From: Rugamonas sp.
GTDB taxonomy: Bacteria > Pseudomonadota > Gammaproteobacteria > Burkholderiales > Burkholderiaceae_D
Length of the DNA: 64,000 bases
Assembly (NCBI RefSeq): GCF_025354735.1
Contig: NZ_JANXMI010000038.1
Coordinates: forward strand, 62,001 to 126,000
Direction: 5' to 3'
Positions 9,560 to 63,992 of the stretch are shown here, one piece after another. The translations under genes were made by a program, and so were the position numbers. The notes below the pieces were generated by a model. The model was not told the origin of the DNA. It saw only the letters and a list, made by a program, of their open reading frames with translations, and ran no database searches. Numbering within the stretch: the stretch's first letter is position 1; every line of letters starts with the position of its first letter.

Positions 9560-9739
9560 GATGGTGCTCGCTCGTCTGTCGTGTCGGAGAGTCGATTTTA
9601 CATGCCGGCTGGCCGCGAAAACAATCTTTTCACAAACACATCACGGCCACCGCGAGCGGGCCGGCGGGGAGCGCGTCCAGTCCATCCGATCTATAATTGC
9701 GCCACCGTCGCAACGGCGGCTGTAGATAGGATGGTTGTT

Positions 9740-57537: not shown

Positions 57538-57776
57538 GAGGCAACTCCCGCGGCCAATGCGCGGATGTCGTGGATCGGCATGTCGAACGCATCATGGATG
57601 CGCAGGATCATTGAGGCGCCGAGCCTGAGAATGCCGCTGCGCAGCTTGGAAATGACCGGCGGCATGACTTCGAGATCACGCGAGAGCGCAGCATCGTTTT
57701 TCAGGTCGCCGAGCTGCAAGAGCTTGTCGAGCAGCGCGTTGACGCCGACGGTGGTGAATGTTGGTGGTTTGGTCAT
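57534..57776 (-). CDS. Small XRE-like DNA-binding protein
   Basis: The ATG at 57776 overlaps the pentapeptide gene's stop. The 80 residues read as a short HTH domain (LLDKLLQLGDLKNDAALSRD, then VMPPVISKLRSGILRLG). It could be an early regulator of the cII or Cro kind. Its neighbours give no more detail. Confidence 0.6.
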   Translation of the reverse strand: MTKPPTFTTVGVNALLDKLLQLGDLKNDAALSRDLEVMPPVISKLRSGILRLGASMILRIHDAFDMPIHDIRALAAGVAS

Positions 57777-58363
57777 ACCGTCACCTCGACGGCGCCTTGG
57801 AACGCAGCCTGCATCGTTGCAAGCCATTCCGCCGACCAAACCAGTGCCAGCGCTGAAAATTGCGATGTCTCTGGCGTATCGCCTTTGCGAATACCCATGA
57901 AAAACCGTTCGGCCGGGCGGCTACTGTTTGGCTTTAAGCTGCCAAGCGCATGGACATCAGCACCGCGAGCGCGACCGAGCGTGCCAACCAGGCAGGAGCA
58001 ATCGCCGTGATATGTCGAGCCGTCCACATTACCTGCCTTCAGCGCTTCGATCAGTGCCGGGACTTCGCGCGGTGCTGACGACAGCACGGCCCAGATATCG
58101 TCGCGAACCAGCAGGAGATTCGCGCCGCTCAGGTCGCTGCCGCTCAGGTCGCTGCCGCTCAGGTCGCTGCCGCTCAGGTCGCTGCCGCGCAGGTTGCTGC
58201 CGCTCAGGTCGCTGCCGCTCAGGTTGCTGCCGCGCAGGTTGCTGTCGCGCAGGTCGCTGTCGGTCGCGCGTGCCGCGCTGACAGTGATAGCCATCGAATT
58301 GTCTGCAACGTCATGCGAAAAAATGACGTTTCCACTCCAGCGATTTTTGATCTCGATTTTCAT
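57773..58363 (-). CDS. Pentapeptide repeat protein
   Basis: A 196-residue protein with about eleven consecutive A/S-D/N-L-R/S-G-type pentapeptides between residues 33 and 85 (SDLRDSNLRGSNLSGSDLSG pattern). They form a right-handed square beta helix. The C-terminal half is different (PALIEALKAGNVDGSTYHGD, then KPNSSRPAERFFMG) and may be a separate domain. Some such proteins mimic DNA and block gyrase. A phage use is not known. Confidence 0.8.
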   Translation of the reverse strand: MKIEIKNRWSGNVIFSHDVADNSMAITVSAARATDSDLRDSNLRGSNLSGSDLSGSNLRGSDLSGSDLSGSDLSGSDLSGANLLLVRDDIWAVLSSAPREVPALIEALKAGNVDGSTYHGDCSCLVGTLGRARGADVHALGSLKPNSSRPAERFFMGIRKGDTPETSQFSALALVWSAEWLATMQAAFQGAVEVTV

Positions 58364-59863: not shown

Positions 59864-59938
59864 TTTAGGCATGCCTAAAGTGTTTAGGCAAGCACAATTT
59901 AGGCATGCCGCAATTTAATTTTGTTAGGCTTACCTAAT
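59864..59938. promoter_or_regulatory. cI/cro operator array
   Basis: Four related sites lie within 75 bases: TTTAGGCATGCCTAAA (59864-59879, perfect palindrome), TTTAGGCAAGCACAA (59883-59897), TTTAGGCATGCCGCAA (59898-59913) and TTAGGCTTACCTAA (59924-59937). The last overlaps the cI start codon. A TTTAAT at 59914-59919 could be the cI -10. TTGCCT with TAAAAT at the left could serve cro. Confidence 0.8.
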
Positions 59939-60635
59939 GACATGGCACAAACGACTAACGCACGCGCGCGAGACGCGCGGCATAAAAAAATCTCATTTCG
60001 CGACGATGGTGGGAGTCAAGCCGTCCAGCGTGACCGATTGGGAAAACGGCGACACCAAGATGCTGGCCGGAGAAAATTTAATGCGAGTGTGCGAAACGCT
60101 AAGAATTGCTCCGACCTGGCTACTTGAAGGTCTTGGAGATATGGACGCGCTGACAGGGGTGGAGGATGGGATTGCTCTTGGAGCTATGCCTGTTGTAATC
60201 GCTGACGATTCGAGTGAATTCTATCAGATTGCGAAAGTCCAACTTAGTCTTCGTGCGGGCATCACCGGCTTCAAAACGGAACCGGATCGACGTGACGGCG
60301 GAACGCGCGGCGTGGCGCGTAGTTGGGTGGATCGCAATGGTTTTGATCCGGCACGCCTGTTAGCTATTGAAGTTACTGGCGACAGTATGGAGCCGCGACT
60401 CTACCAAGGCGATCTAGTCATCATCAACACCGCCGACACTATGAAAAAGGACGGCGAGGTATTCGCGTTCAACTATGATGGTGAGGCAGTCGTAAAGCGA
60501 TTGGTGAAGGAGCGTGGCGAGTGGTGGCTTTTCTCTGACAATGCCGATCAATCGCGCCATCGACCGAAGAGCTGCCGTGAAAATGAGTGCATCATAATTG
60601 GTCGAGTAGTAAAAAAAGAGAGTGATCGCATTTAA
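59937..60635 (+). CDS. cI: CI-type repressor with S24 (LexA-like) peptidase domain
   Basis: A 232-residue repressor. An XRE HTH occupies residues 1-60 (FATMVGVKPSSVTDWENGDT). The S24 domain has the Ala107-Gly108 cleavage pair in LRAGITG, the nucleophile Ser150 in GDSM, and Lys187 in AVVKRLV. It should hold the prophage silent and be cleaved when RecA is activated. Its start codon lies within the fourth operator, and only a weak AGG precedes it. Confidence 0.9.
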   Translation: MTWHKRLTHARETRGIKKSHFATMVGVKPSSVTDWENGDTKMLAGENLMRVCETLRIAPTWLLEGLGDMDALTGVEDGIALGAMPVVIADDSSEFYQIAKVQLSLRAGITGFKTEPDRRDGGTRGVARSWVDRNGFDPARLLAIEVTGDSMEPRLYQGDLVIINTADTMKKDGEVFAFNYDGEAVVKRLVKERGEWWLFSDNADQSRHRPKSCRENECIIIGRVVKKESDRI

Positions 60636-60657: not shown

Positions 60658-61344
60658 ATGAAAATACTGATCTTAATTTTGCTAATGAGTTCATCTTCTT
60701 ACTCTTCAGCATCTGATGTTGATATTCTCAAGGAGGCATGTGTTTCACTAAAGACACCTGCGAAAAGAATCGAGTGTTTGGACGCTATCGGCAGAGTTAA
60801 TTTCACCACAAAGAAAGACGCCATTCACCCTCTACCCGCTCCTGCGGAGAAGGCATTTCCTGAATTGGCTCACGAAGACTGGGCGAAATTAGTAAGTGTA
60901 AAAAACGACTCTTTTTCCAAGGATATACAGTTCAGCGGAATATCGAAAAACGAGGGGAAAACATTCGGCTCGCCCGAATATAGTTGGAAGGCAAATGCCT
61001 TCCTGGGCAAGACGTCAGGACTGGACACGTATATGATTTCTTTTAACGATCTATACGTGGCAGCGAAATGGAAAATGTGGACTTGGGCAAGCAGCGATCG
61101 GGCGGAAGACTTAAAGATACTACAGGGCCACCGCGACGTTTCATCCTGCGGTGCCGGCACATGCCTGTTCTCTGAACCGCTAGGAATTATGGTTGATCGT
61201 AAATTCATGATCGACGCTGCCAATCAAGGGATTTGGATTAAATTAAAGTCCCAGACAGGCGAAGAATTTTCGCTAAAGGTATCGAGTGAGGATGCTTCCG
61301 CACTGCTTAGCGCGGTTGCGGAGTGTAAGCTCAACTTGTGCTGA
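60658..61344 (+). CDS. Exported moron protein next to cI
   Basis: A 228-residue protein with a signal peptide (MKILILILLMSSSSYSSAS) and then a Cys pair motif (EACVSLKTPAKRIECLDAIG) seen in small envelope-associated proteins. Base composition is AT-richer than the phage average. It follows cI in the same direction, so it should be expressed in the lysogen. A role in exclusion or lysogen fitness is likely but not shown. A stem-loop (CCCGCGCA/TGCGCGGG) follows near 61359-61384. Confidence 0.7.
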   Translation: MKILILILLMSSSSYSSASDVDILKEACVSLKTPAKRIECLDAIGRVNFTTKKDAIHPLPAPAEKAFPELAHEDWAKLVSVKNDSFSKDIQFSGISKNEGKTFGSPEYSWKANAFLGKTSGLDTYMISFNDLYVAAKWKMWTWASSDRAEDLKILQGHRDVSSCGAGTCLFSEPLGIMVDRKFMIDAANQGIWIKLKSQTGEEFSLKVSSEDASALLSAVAECKLNLC

Positions 61345-61452
61345 GCTACGGAATGAAATAGCCCGCGCACCATCCGATGCGCGGGTCGAACTGGCATGGC
61401 GATCAGCCCGACCGGGGGGGCAAGGGCCTATTTTTCCAGGGCCCTGCCACCC

Positions 61453-62490
61453 TTAAATAACGCTCGCTAAGTAGGCAATCTCTCGCTGATATCGGGTCAC
61501 ACTCTCATTTACCTGAAGCCGCTTCCCGTCGACACTATGGAACTGTCCAATTTTAAGTTTGGAAATAGGAATGCTTTTTGCTCCACTTATTTGCCCGCTA
61601 GATACAAAATCATCAGTGATAACAAAGGCGTCGCTGAGCTGGCCATGATCAAAGAGGGATGGATACTTCTCCGCTATTTTTAACGCACGCTCAATATACA
61701 TTTGACTGGCCCGGCCAGGCGTAGACGCAAGGCGACCTTTCGACCCAGCCATAGTCATTACGATTGCAGCGACCTTCGGCGAACTAATATTGCCTCCCCT
61801 CACATTCCAAACGCCGAAATCTTTTTTGGCGTTACTCATCATATCCAGTGTGAGCGACAAAGAATCGATCGAGTGCTCGTCGACCCGCACTGGAATTATA
61901 ATCGCGTCCGAAGCGCACCATGCCAAGTGCGTACCACCGGCATAGAATGGGCTGGTATCCATCAGCAGATGGTTGCAGCCTTTATCCGCCGCCTCAGCAT
62001 CTAAAATTTCACGCAGGCTGAATAGTAAGCGCTTCACCGCTTGAGGATCGGCACGAGAAAGGCCGACCTGTAATTGCTGGTAGAGCGTAGAGGGGAAGGC
62101 GAACATTTCGGCGTCCCCTGGTAATACGTAGCATGCCTTCCCACCCTTGAAATCCTCGCAGTGATTGCTGACGCGGTAAGACACATCCTGGAGCAAATCG
62201 CCAAACGCTGGACCAAGCAGTTTTGGCAGGAGCGCTTTGGCCACGGTGACGTCAGGGGATGCGCCTCGCATTAGCGTTTCGGTCAAATTTCCCTGTGGGC
62301 ACAGATCGGCTACTAACAATGTATTTTTTCGCGAAATCTCATAGGAGAGATTAAACGACATAGTTGATTTGCCAACGCCTCCGCGCAAATTGGAGACTGC
62401 GTAGCTGCGATAACGCAACCCTCCGGGCATGGTAACGCCGTTCTCGACTACGTCTGAATAACGCTCGAGAACCTGCTCGACTGTAGACAT
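61453..62490 (-). CDS. Lone ParA-family ATPase
   Basis: A 345-residue protein with the deviant Walker A LRGGVGKST (35-43), a Walker A' DLCPQGNLTE (about 61-70) and a later LLMDTSPFYAGG. It fits ParA/Soj-like ATPases. There is no N-terminal HTH of the P1 ParA type, and no ParB gene is beside it. GGAGA lies 7 bases before the ATG. Upstream is an array of five GCAGG motifs at 19-bp spacing that overlaps its likely promoter. A role in keeping the phage DNA (plasmid-like state) or positioning is inferred. Confidence 0.8.
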   Translation of the reverse strand: MSTVEQVLERYSDVVENGVTMPGGLRYRSYAVSNLRGGVGKSTMSFNLSYEISRKNTLLVADLCPQGNLTETLMRGASPDVTVAKALLPKLLGPAFGDLLQDVSYRVSNHCEDFKGGKACYVLPGDAEMFAFPSTLYQQLQVGLSRADPQAVKRLLFSLREILDAEAADKGCNHLLMDTSPFYAGGTHLAWCASDAIIIPVRVDEHSIDSLSLTLDMMSNAKKDFGVWNVRGGNISSPKVAAIVMTMAGSKGRLASTPGRASQMYIERALKIAEKYPSLFDHGQLSDAFVITDDFVSSGQISGAKSIPISKLKIGQFHSVDGKRLQVNESVTRYQREIAYLASVI

Positions 62491-62510
62491 ATTTCTCTCC
62501 TTTGGTGGGT

Positions 62511-62605
62511 GCAGGCGAAAGCATATACCGCAGGAGATGCAAAAACAAGCAGGGATAACAAATAAGTGCAGGCTCTACTAAAATATGCAGGAGATTGCTT
62601 TTCCC
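62511..62605. repeat. Five GCAGG motifs at exact 19-bp period upstream of parA
   Basis: GCAGG starts at 62511, 62530, 62549, 62568 and 62587, each exactly 19 bases apart. The bases between are AT-rich and vary. The array covers the parA -10 and -35 region. It may be an operator or a centromere-like site for the ParA system. Confidence 0.75.
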
Positions 62606-62888: not shown

Positions 62889-63203
62889 TTAGGTCGCCAT
62901 TTCCAGCGTCAGCATGCCGTCGATCACATCGATGACGTCGGCGGCGCCGTACACGCTGCGCTGAACATCGCCCACCTTGAACAGCGCATTTAGCGCGGTG
63001 CGCTCCTTGCGCTTGATCGCGGCGATCTCGTTCCGGATCTCATTCAGCAACCGCCATTGTGGATGACTATACCCTGGCGCCCGCCCTGCCTTGGGCCAGA
63101 TCACCTTTTCAAGAGCGAGGCGCTGCTTGTTTAGCTGTGTGCGCTTTGCGCGCAGGGCGTGCCACTGCATGGTGGCATGAATGAGTTCGCGATCGTGGTT
63201 CAT
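62889..63203 (-). CDS. Hypothetical phage protein
   Basis: A 104-residue basic helical protein (IHATMQWHALRAKRTQLNKQ, then LLNEIRNEIAAIKRKERTAL) ending in an acidic DVIDVIDGML tail. It follows the Rha-type gene closely. No family was recognised. Confidence 0.55.
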   Translation of the reverse strand: MNHDRELIHATMQWHALRAKRTQLNKQRLALEKVIWPKAGRAPGYSHPQWRLLNEIRNEIAAIKRKERTALNALFKVGDVQRSVYGAADVIDVIDGMLTLEMAT

Positions 63204-63206
63204 GAC

Positions 63207-63992
63207 CTACCCCATGTCAAGTTGTCCCTGCGTACCTGCGGCGGCGCCCTTCGGCCGAACCAGCTCACCAATACGCGCAACGCCGGCGGCGTTGTAGCGG
63301 AAGCTCGGCATCTGCTTGTCCGAGCTGCGTGACTTGTCCAGCATGAACTCGCCGTACTGTGGAATTTTCAGGCCGTGCTCGTTTGCCAGCTTGCCGACGG
63401 CATTTTTGCTGATCCCGTGAATTTTGCCGACCTCGGTCGCCGAGATCATCTTTTCTATGGTTGGTAGCGGCATTACGTCTTGGCCGGCCACAGTGTTGAC
63501 AAGCGCGGCGTAGATTCCCTGCTGCGCTGGCAAGCCGAGCGCCGGGAACTTCGCGCACAACTCGGCCGCGACGCGCGTGGTGATCTCTAGTGCGCGGGCC
63601 TGACGGAATGAGTCAAGGGATGGATTGGCGCTCCGGCGCGTCTGCTGGACGGGAAGCATACCCGACTCCAGCTCGACCAGGCGGTCATAGACCTTCGTCT
63701 GCACCGCGAGCGATTCCGACATCACCATCAGCTCTGATTCCCGCTTCGGCAGGTGATAGCACTTGCTTTGCCGCGACGATCCGTTTGGCCCCGGCACTTG
63801 AACGTGGCCTAAGAATTTAGGCGACGTTATCCCAGGGTGCTTTTCAATTTTCACCATGAAATTATCGTGTCGCAGCTCGGCTGAGCCCGGCTCTCGCATT
63901 TCATTGATGATATCGACCAGCTCGATGCTGGACATCGTGACCGCCTGTGCGGCGGCGGCCTTCAACAACTCATATTTGACGCGATCATTCAT
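63207..63992 (-). CDS. Rha-family phage regulatory protein
   Basis: A 261-residue protein starting near the window edge (ATG 63992, a second ATG at 63935). The N-terminal half shows the Rha pattern: SSIELVDIINEMREPG, RHDNFMVKIEKHPG, KCYHLPKRESELMVMSES and AVQTKVYDRLVELE. The second half has an HTH-like stretch (SATEVGKIHGISKNAVGKLA). Rha proteins regulate phage growth. It is the last gene visible. Confidence 0.75.
   Translation of the reverse strand: MNDRVKYELLKAAAAQAVTMSSIELVDIINEMREPGSAELRHDNFMVKIEKHPGITSPKFLGHVQVPGPNGSSRQSKCYHLPKRESELMVMSESLAVQTKVYDRLVELESGMLPVQQTRRSANPSLDSFRQARALEITTRVAAELCAKFPALGLPAQQGIYAALVNTVAGQDVMPLPTIEKMISATEVGKIHGISKNAVGKLANEHGLKIPQYGEFMLDKSRSSDKQMPSFRYNAAGVARIGELVRPKGAAAGTQGQLDMG

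Follow-up and report, generated by a model that had tools for sequence, protein, structure and literature searches.

A conserved 19/9-bp CCTGC array precedes a lone parA gene in a Rugamonas prophage: a candidate binding site in a probable self-contained cassette

ATPases of the ParA/MinD P-loop group have a deviant Walker A motif with a signature lysine, KGGxGK[ST]. In a 64,000-nucleotide stretch of DNA from Rugamonas sp., called here the window, a preliminary description pointed to a parA gene in a prophage, standing without a partner and directly preceded by five GCAGG motifs without one base of drift. The locus raises the question of what a periodic array does in front of such a gene, and whether it belongs to a partition system, a regulator or something else. 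The positions and spacing were confirmed: GCAGG on the plus strand (CCTGC on the parA strand) starts at 62511, 62530, 62549, 62568 and 62587, in steps of exactly 19 bp, with the nearest site starting 25 bp from the parA ATG (Table 1). The CI and Rha-type regulators reported nearby were also found, although the antirepressor reached Pfam Phage_pRha at only 0.041, below the cut-off. RecT, RecE, a RusA-like resolvase and an integrase follow past the end of the window, and because these genes together surround parA, we place it in a prophage; the prophage on this contig has integrase, RecE and RecT genes. The terminator-like hairpin is weak evidence by itself, since three such sites were found in that stretch against 1.6 expected.

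Table 1 Features of the parA locus, with positions in the window
Feature	Position	Strand	Description
Terminator-like hairpin, downstream of parA	61362..61385	-	10 pairs, 8 G-C
parA, lone ParA-family ATPase, 345 aa	61453..62490	-	AAA_31 1.7e-14; phrog_164 ParA-like 2.7e-41
Ribosome-binding-site-like AAGGAG	62497..62502	-	6 nt before parA ATG, from sequence
Five-copy iteron array	62511..62591	-	CCTGC units 19 bp apart, spacers variable
CI-type repressor, same prophage	59937..60635	+	HTH_3 and Peptidase S24; convergent with parA
228-aa ORF after cI	60658..61344	+	no Pfam/NCBIfam family; weak PHROG match, function unknown, E 0.02
104-aa ORF upstream of array	62889..63203	-	no family
Rha/Ant-type antirepressor	63207..63992	-	phrog_1726 anti-repressor 1.1e-34

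GCAGG alone is common, with 256 copies in the window. When the window was simulated 60 times with a first-order Markov model, no 5-mer reached five copies at any fixed spacing of 8-40 bp, and in the real window the other runs of at least five copies detected by the same procedure all lay within a 15-bp array at 58120-58259. Three CCTGC words at 19-bp spacing were unique to the parA array in the 5.76 Mb genome (three overlapping matches). These results, the common register of the relatives and the controls with 20-bp spacing and reversed motif described below rule out chance periodicity. The 15-bp tandem array (9.4 copies, 92%) lies inside a 196-aa minus-strand ORF (57773-58363), whose repeated SDLSG-type residues resemble, by eye, those of a pentapeptide-repeat protein.

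The scans gave 50 relatives of the window ParA, 17 from genome contigs and 33 from viral ones, with 50-71% identity in the best segment. Arrays were counted in 46 of these 50, four partial matches (L017, L018, L019 and L050) being left out and near-identical copies kept. CCTGC sites were present in 44 of the 46 within 250 bp upstream of parA, in one register of 19 or 9 bp, which disposes of the objection raised with the preliminary description that related prophages might lack the periodicity. At least two CCTGC pairs at exactly 19 bp occurred in 39 of the 46, and five relatives (L005, L006, L007, L033 and L051) use 9, 19 or 28 bp. Over all relatives the pairs numbered 163 at 19 bp, 33 at 9, 49 at 28 and 109 at 38, and one each at 18 and 20. 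The exact 19-bp step is thus true of the window array and, as a general rule, has to be replaced by a 19/9-bp register of which it is one form. The array-bearing relatives span proteobacteria, a myxobacterium and actinobacteria; among the named hosts of the relatives are Rahnella, Stenotrophomonas, Bordetella, Mesorhizobium, Microvirga, a Myxococcales bacterium, Mycobacterium and Cellulosimicrobium. A full-length homologue at 50% identity (L015) had no CCTGC within 250 bp, and L010 had no CCTGC pairs and different DNA before a parA devoid of its N-terminus. Periodicity of another motif in L015 is not claimed, as lag 19 ranked first yet weakly (35%).

The form of the array (pure 19 bp or 9/19 bp, labelled by hand) followed the phylogeny of the protein: on a tree of 38 ParAs, from which 9 of 47 rows (eight near-copies and L010) had been left out, it changed 5 times, against a mean of 13.8 for shuffled labels, and none of 200 shuffles gave so low a number. 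Such tracking could come from shared ancestry alone. The dinucleotide before CCTGC also varied by clade, the commonest being CT in the enteric clade (27/45), CA in the alpha/actino clade (32/55) and GA in clade II (28/57); the clade of the window ParA itself was mixed, with CT at 12 and AA at 11 of 39 sites.

By sequence family and fold the parA product belongs with the ParA proteins. AAA_31 and CbiA of Pfam scored above the cut-off, and the AF2 model (pLDDT 89.9, pTM 0.91) has a Soj/McdA-like fold, matched in Foldseek by McdA, Soj and pSM19035 delta with E values from 8e-12 to 1e-9. The Walker A motif reads NLRGGVGKST, with R36 in place of the signature lysine; the arginine was invariant in all 32 aligned ParAs (LRGG[VI]GKST), the rest of the motif being intact. 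The model has no N-terminal HTH of the type Ia kind, because only a single helix (residues 3-17) precedes the first strand (29-32).

No ORF of at least 28 aa within about 1.5 kb of parA was common to more than 5 of the 33 loci used for ORF clustering (14 of 47 were left out), and a search at 60 aa, in which a fourth cluster apparently mixed with antisense ORFs was not used, gave no recurring ORF either. The claim that this parA lacks a partner is borne out over that range, with the best small ORF present in 5 of 33 loci; a centromere-binding gene elsewhere is possible. Upstream of parA the longest ORF, not necessarily the true neighbour, belonged to the phrog_4 repressor family in 9 of 36 loci and to antitermination Q in 4 of 36, and in single loci it matched a transporter, transposases or an isocitrate-dehydrogenase-type enzyme. 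In one relative (L004) the array and gene lie among metabolic genes, and in the Mycobacterium relative on a 6.56 Mb scaffold. Since the neighbours vary and no ORF recurs, the array and parA look, from gene order, like an independent cassette.

A sister family of ParAs, with about 30-33% identity to the window ParA mostly over the full length, lacks the CCTGC array over the upstream DNA that was read. It resembles the window ParA in having a conserved word before the start codon and differs from it in the word itself: AAAACTAA stands just before the sister parA in 3 of 3 Aeromonas plasmid loci (L168, L169 and L192) and 4 of 4 genome loci (L188-L191), and forms one arm of an inverted repeat in 4 of these 7, as identified by script. 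Six sister ParAs carry the Walker motif NLRGGIGKT, again with arginine for the signature lysine, and L192 gave none; no further members were found in the viral contigs searched. Two of the Aeromonas plasmids encode a separate 214-aa ParA beside a short ORF (5198-5842 in L168 and 7826-8470 in L169), which makes the 345-aa ParA of either plasmid an unlikely partition motor. More distantly, phrog_164 "ParA-like partition proteins" of Pseudomonas phage phi297 and Klebsiella phage ST11-VIM1phi8.2 are encoded shortly after a CI gene; they show 22-27% identity to the window ParA, and no CCTGC array was found within the 400 bp read. A distant ParA (22.7% identity) is carried by many small plasmids, such as L170 and similar ones of Klebsiella; in L170, whose upstream DNA was read over 400 bp, there is no CCTGC array.

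The preliminary description had placed the array over the likely -10 and -35 elements of a promoter. This was not upheld, as no consensus promoter was found on the minus strand over the window array and hexamer scores hardly exceeded those of shuffled DNA: over 36 upstream regions the mean was 7.68 against 7.42, and scores of at least 9 were obtained in 2 of 36 regions against 6.1% of shuffles. TTGNNCCTGC occurred in 15 of the 36 regions against 3.2 expected, but TTG is itself part of the enteric repeat. A promoter inside the array, suggested by eye because a TTG-type and an AT-rich hexamer stand 17 bp apart, was dropped because its scoring barely beat the shuffles. For these reasons an operator function of the array is argued from its position. 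RNA folding of eight arrays gave z values from -1.21 to +1.73, with no signal of structure, and the spacers vary while CCTGC stays; the array is therefore likely to work as DNA rather than as RNA, as far as such comparisons can indicate.

Arrays of this kind also occur apart from parA. The strict pattern CCTGCA-N13-CCTGCA-N13-CCTGCA, which the window array itself would not match, was found in 112 stretches of viral contigs; the same pattern with 20-bp spacing gave 11, and the reversed motif 3. Eighty of the 112 were read. A ParA of the window family lay beside the array in 16 and no full-length relative was found in 64, from which five low-complexity loci (L088, L114, L119, L129 and L130) were set aside. 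The remaining 59, in which L117 and L134 (identical spacers, maybe plain tandem repeats), L109 and L094 were kept, have no full-length ParA of the window family in the DNA read, a ParA elsewhere in the contigs being possible; the window ParA had no match in 57 of them, a 26% relative nearby in L094 and a remnant in L109. By their flanks the 64 loci fell into 28 clusters, the largest of 25 loci; one named record related to this cluster annotates the gene as EaA. Outside it, the units ending in GCT or ACT (30/79) give the consensus CCTGCACTTTttcGcTgCT, near that of the enteric parA arrays, CCTGCAcTTTTTcgTtgCT, and 9-bp neighbours are present in array-only loci too. A CI-like gene was present in the DNA read in 16 of the 59 array-only loci (within about 1.1 kb in six) and in 9 of the 16 parA loci.

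In L056 the array encodes 24 in-frame residues where an early gene of Klebsiella phage MK416014 has 3; it sits between a 311-bp flank at 99.4% identity and an identical stretch of 28 bp, beyond which the genes differ, so that insertion and mosaic exchange would both be possible origins. L109 (6749-6905) has kept an array of three sites but lacks most of parA, of which the C-terminal end alone follows directly. Ten phage regions from named records, chosen by flank similarity that often covered a short part, had an array in L186 only. Seven CCTGC sites, five of which keep the 19-bp spacing, lie near 9578 in the phage contig L061, where no ParA match was found.

Among 372 genomes of one family, presumed to be Enterobacteriaceae, the strict motif was found in 5 and the reversed control in none; ParA (E 1e-30) was found in one, beside its array, leaving 4 array-bearing genomes without a ParA match. 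In three of these (L203, L205 and L206) the array comes after a CI-like gene, recognised by eye, with its follower genes, whereas the fourth (L204) has it inside an ORF. Of 398 genomes of the phylum, one contained the strict motif, there a simple tandem repeat, and one was matched by the reversed control, four times; ParA at E below 1e-30 was present in 5, of which four were of the sister type without an array. A megablast search of E. coli genomes gave no near match to one enteric parA with its array or to two array-only stretches. Full-text searches of the literature, partial in coverage and weak as evidence, returned nothing that we recognised as the array or the cassette.

Judged by the features tested in sequence, the array is real and conserved, its cassette is not a partition system, and it is a variant among ParA-type modules. 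The reading we prefer, to which we give about an even chance, is that the array, the lone parA and the terminator-like hairpin would form a self-contained prophage accessory cassette, in which the CCTGC array is predicted to be the DNA sequence specifically recognised by ParA itself or by a complex containing it. ParA would load cooperatively on the 19/9-bp register and, in the manner of a repressor at its operator, probably keep the expression of its own gene low. Autorepression is proposed because the array lies directly before the start codon, and ParA is the simplest candidate for the binder because the array has no other recurring neighbour gene and because, in the sister ParAs, all 7 loci read carry a different word in that position. 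We infer further that the effect of binding is repression, and that the role of the cassette lies in phage competition rather than partition. The single-ATPase regulator suggested in the preliminary description comes close to this autorepression reading. To our knowledge, no ParA without an HTH binds a specific site, which counts against ParA as the binder, and a host-encoded protein could possibly take its place. The arrays without parA are unexplained by autorepression and count against it as well.

These array-only loci, which outnumber those with parA (59 against 16 of 80) and have a consensus nearly equal to that of the enteric parA arrays, would suit an array bound by a different and widespread DNA-binding protein that has parA as only one of its targets. 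We regard that as quite unlikely, since the array variants track ParA clades across phyla and the strict motif, in the 398 genomes, is rare and no more frequent than its reversed control. A type I partition module, with the array as centromere, ParA as motor and ParB supplied from elsewhere, would fit the ParA fold, the iterons beside parA and the distant relatives on small plasmids. The missing recurrent partner ORF in 33 loci, the chromosomal location here and in other hosts and the separate 214-aa ParA of two Aeromonas plasmids with the sister gene speak against it and make it improbable, and plasmid partition is unlikely because several cassette copies lie in chromosomes. The earlier proposal of a plasmid-like maintenance module is not supported: the cassette lies in an integrated prophage here and on the large Mycobacterium scaffold, and no gene for a centromere-binding protein was found to accompany it. 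The position of tandem repeats just ahead of a gene also recalls the RNA repeats upstream of a toxic gene in type III toxin-antitoxin systems, yet structured repeat RNA and an endoRNase toxin, by which such systems are recognised, are both lacking, for the product has a ParA fold, the spacers vary with CCTGC kept and the eight folded arrays gave no structure signal; we consider this scarcely credible.

Phage exclusion of the BstA-aba kind is entertained as a tentative possibility: ParA would block competing phages, and the array, whether present in cis or picked up by others, would titrate or switch off ParA and make the DNA bearing it immune. The array-only loci would be most readily explained by a benefit of the array to the DNA bearing it, such as an immunity element of this kind would, by analogy, confer. 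Arrays without a full-length ParA in 59 of the 80 phage loci read, the four array-bearing genomes of the 372 without a ParA match at E 1e-30, the in-frame insert of L056 and the parA remnant of L109 point the same way, as does the phrog_4 repressor family upstream of parA in 9 of 36 loci, which puts some copies after cI, in the rex/bstA position. Against exclusion, no such phenotype is known for the array-parA cassette, only one of the 372 genomes has ParA whereas five have the array, so that selection by ParA would need to be patchy, and ParA may lie in the phage contigs outside the DNA read. PADLOC gave no match, and in profile searches, which did not compare BstA directly, only P-loop/ParA-type families matched the window protein, so that the two share no family match. 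Slightly more doubtful is the fuller proposal that a ParB-less ParA reading the 19/9-bp array acts in prophage exclusion, with the array as a transferable immunity badge taken up by unrelated phages, in early genes and in the slot downstream of cI, to escape it.

If, as in the preferred reading, ParA recognises its own DNA site without ParB, the view that ParA-family ATPases need an adaptor for specificity would change. Should the array turn out to be an immunity tag, DNA-encoded self-immunity would gain a further case, unrelated to BstA-aba, and the spread of this element to other phages could be counted directly from sequence.

Among known systems, the type I partition ATPases (Soj/ParA, McdA and pSM19035 delta) have the P-loop ATPase fold in common with the window ParA, which differs from them in its 345 aa, the arginine for the signature lysine, the lack of a recurring partner gene and its integrated location. 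With ParABS the cassette shares a repeat array in cis, whose centromere role would be putative, whereas no recurring centromere-binding partner was found within about 1.5 kb of parA in 33 loci. For BstA-aba of prophage BTP1, a short DNA element is described at the 5' end of the gene (PMC8585504), with direct repeats that are required and variants by clade. The window cassette resembles it in being a prophage accessory gene, some copies of which lie after cI, with a 5' direct-repeat DNA element and clade variants; it differs in its protein family, unrelated by the searches run, and in its periodic multi-site array, which also occurs alone in other phages.
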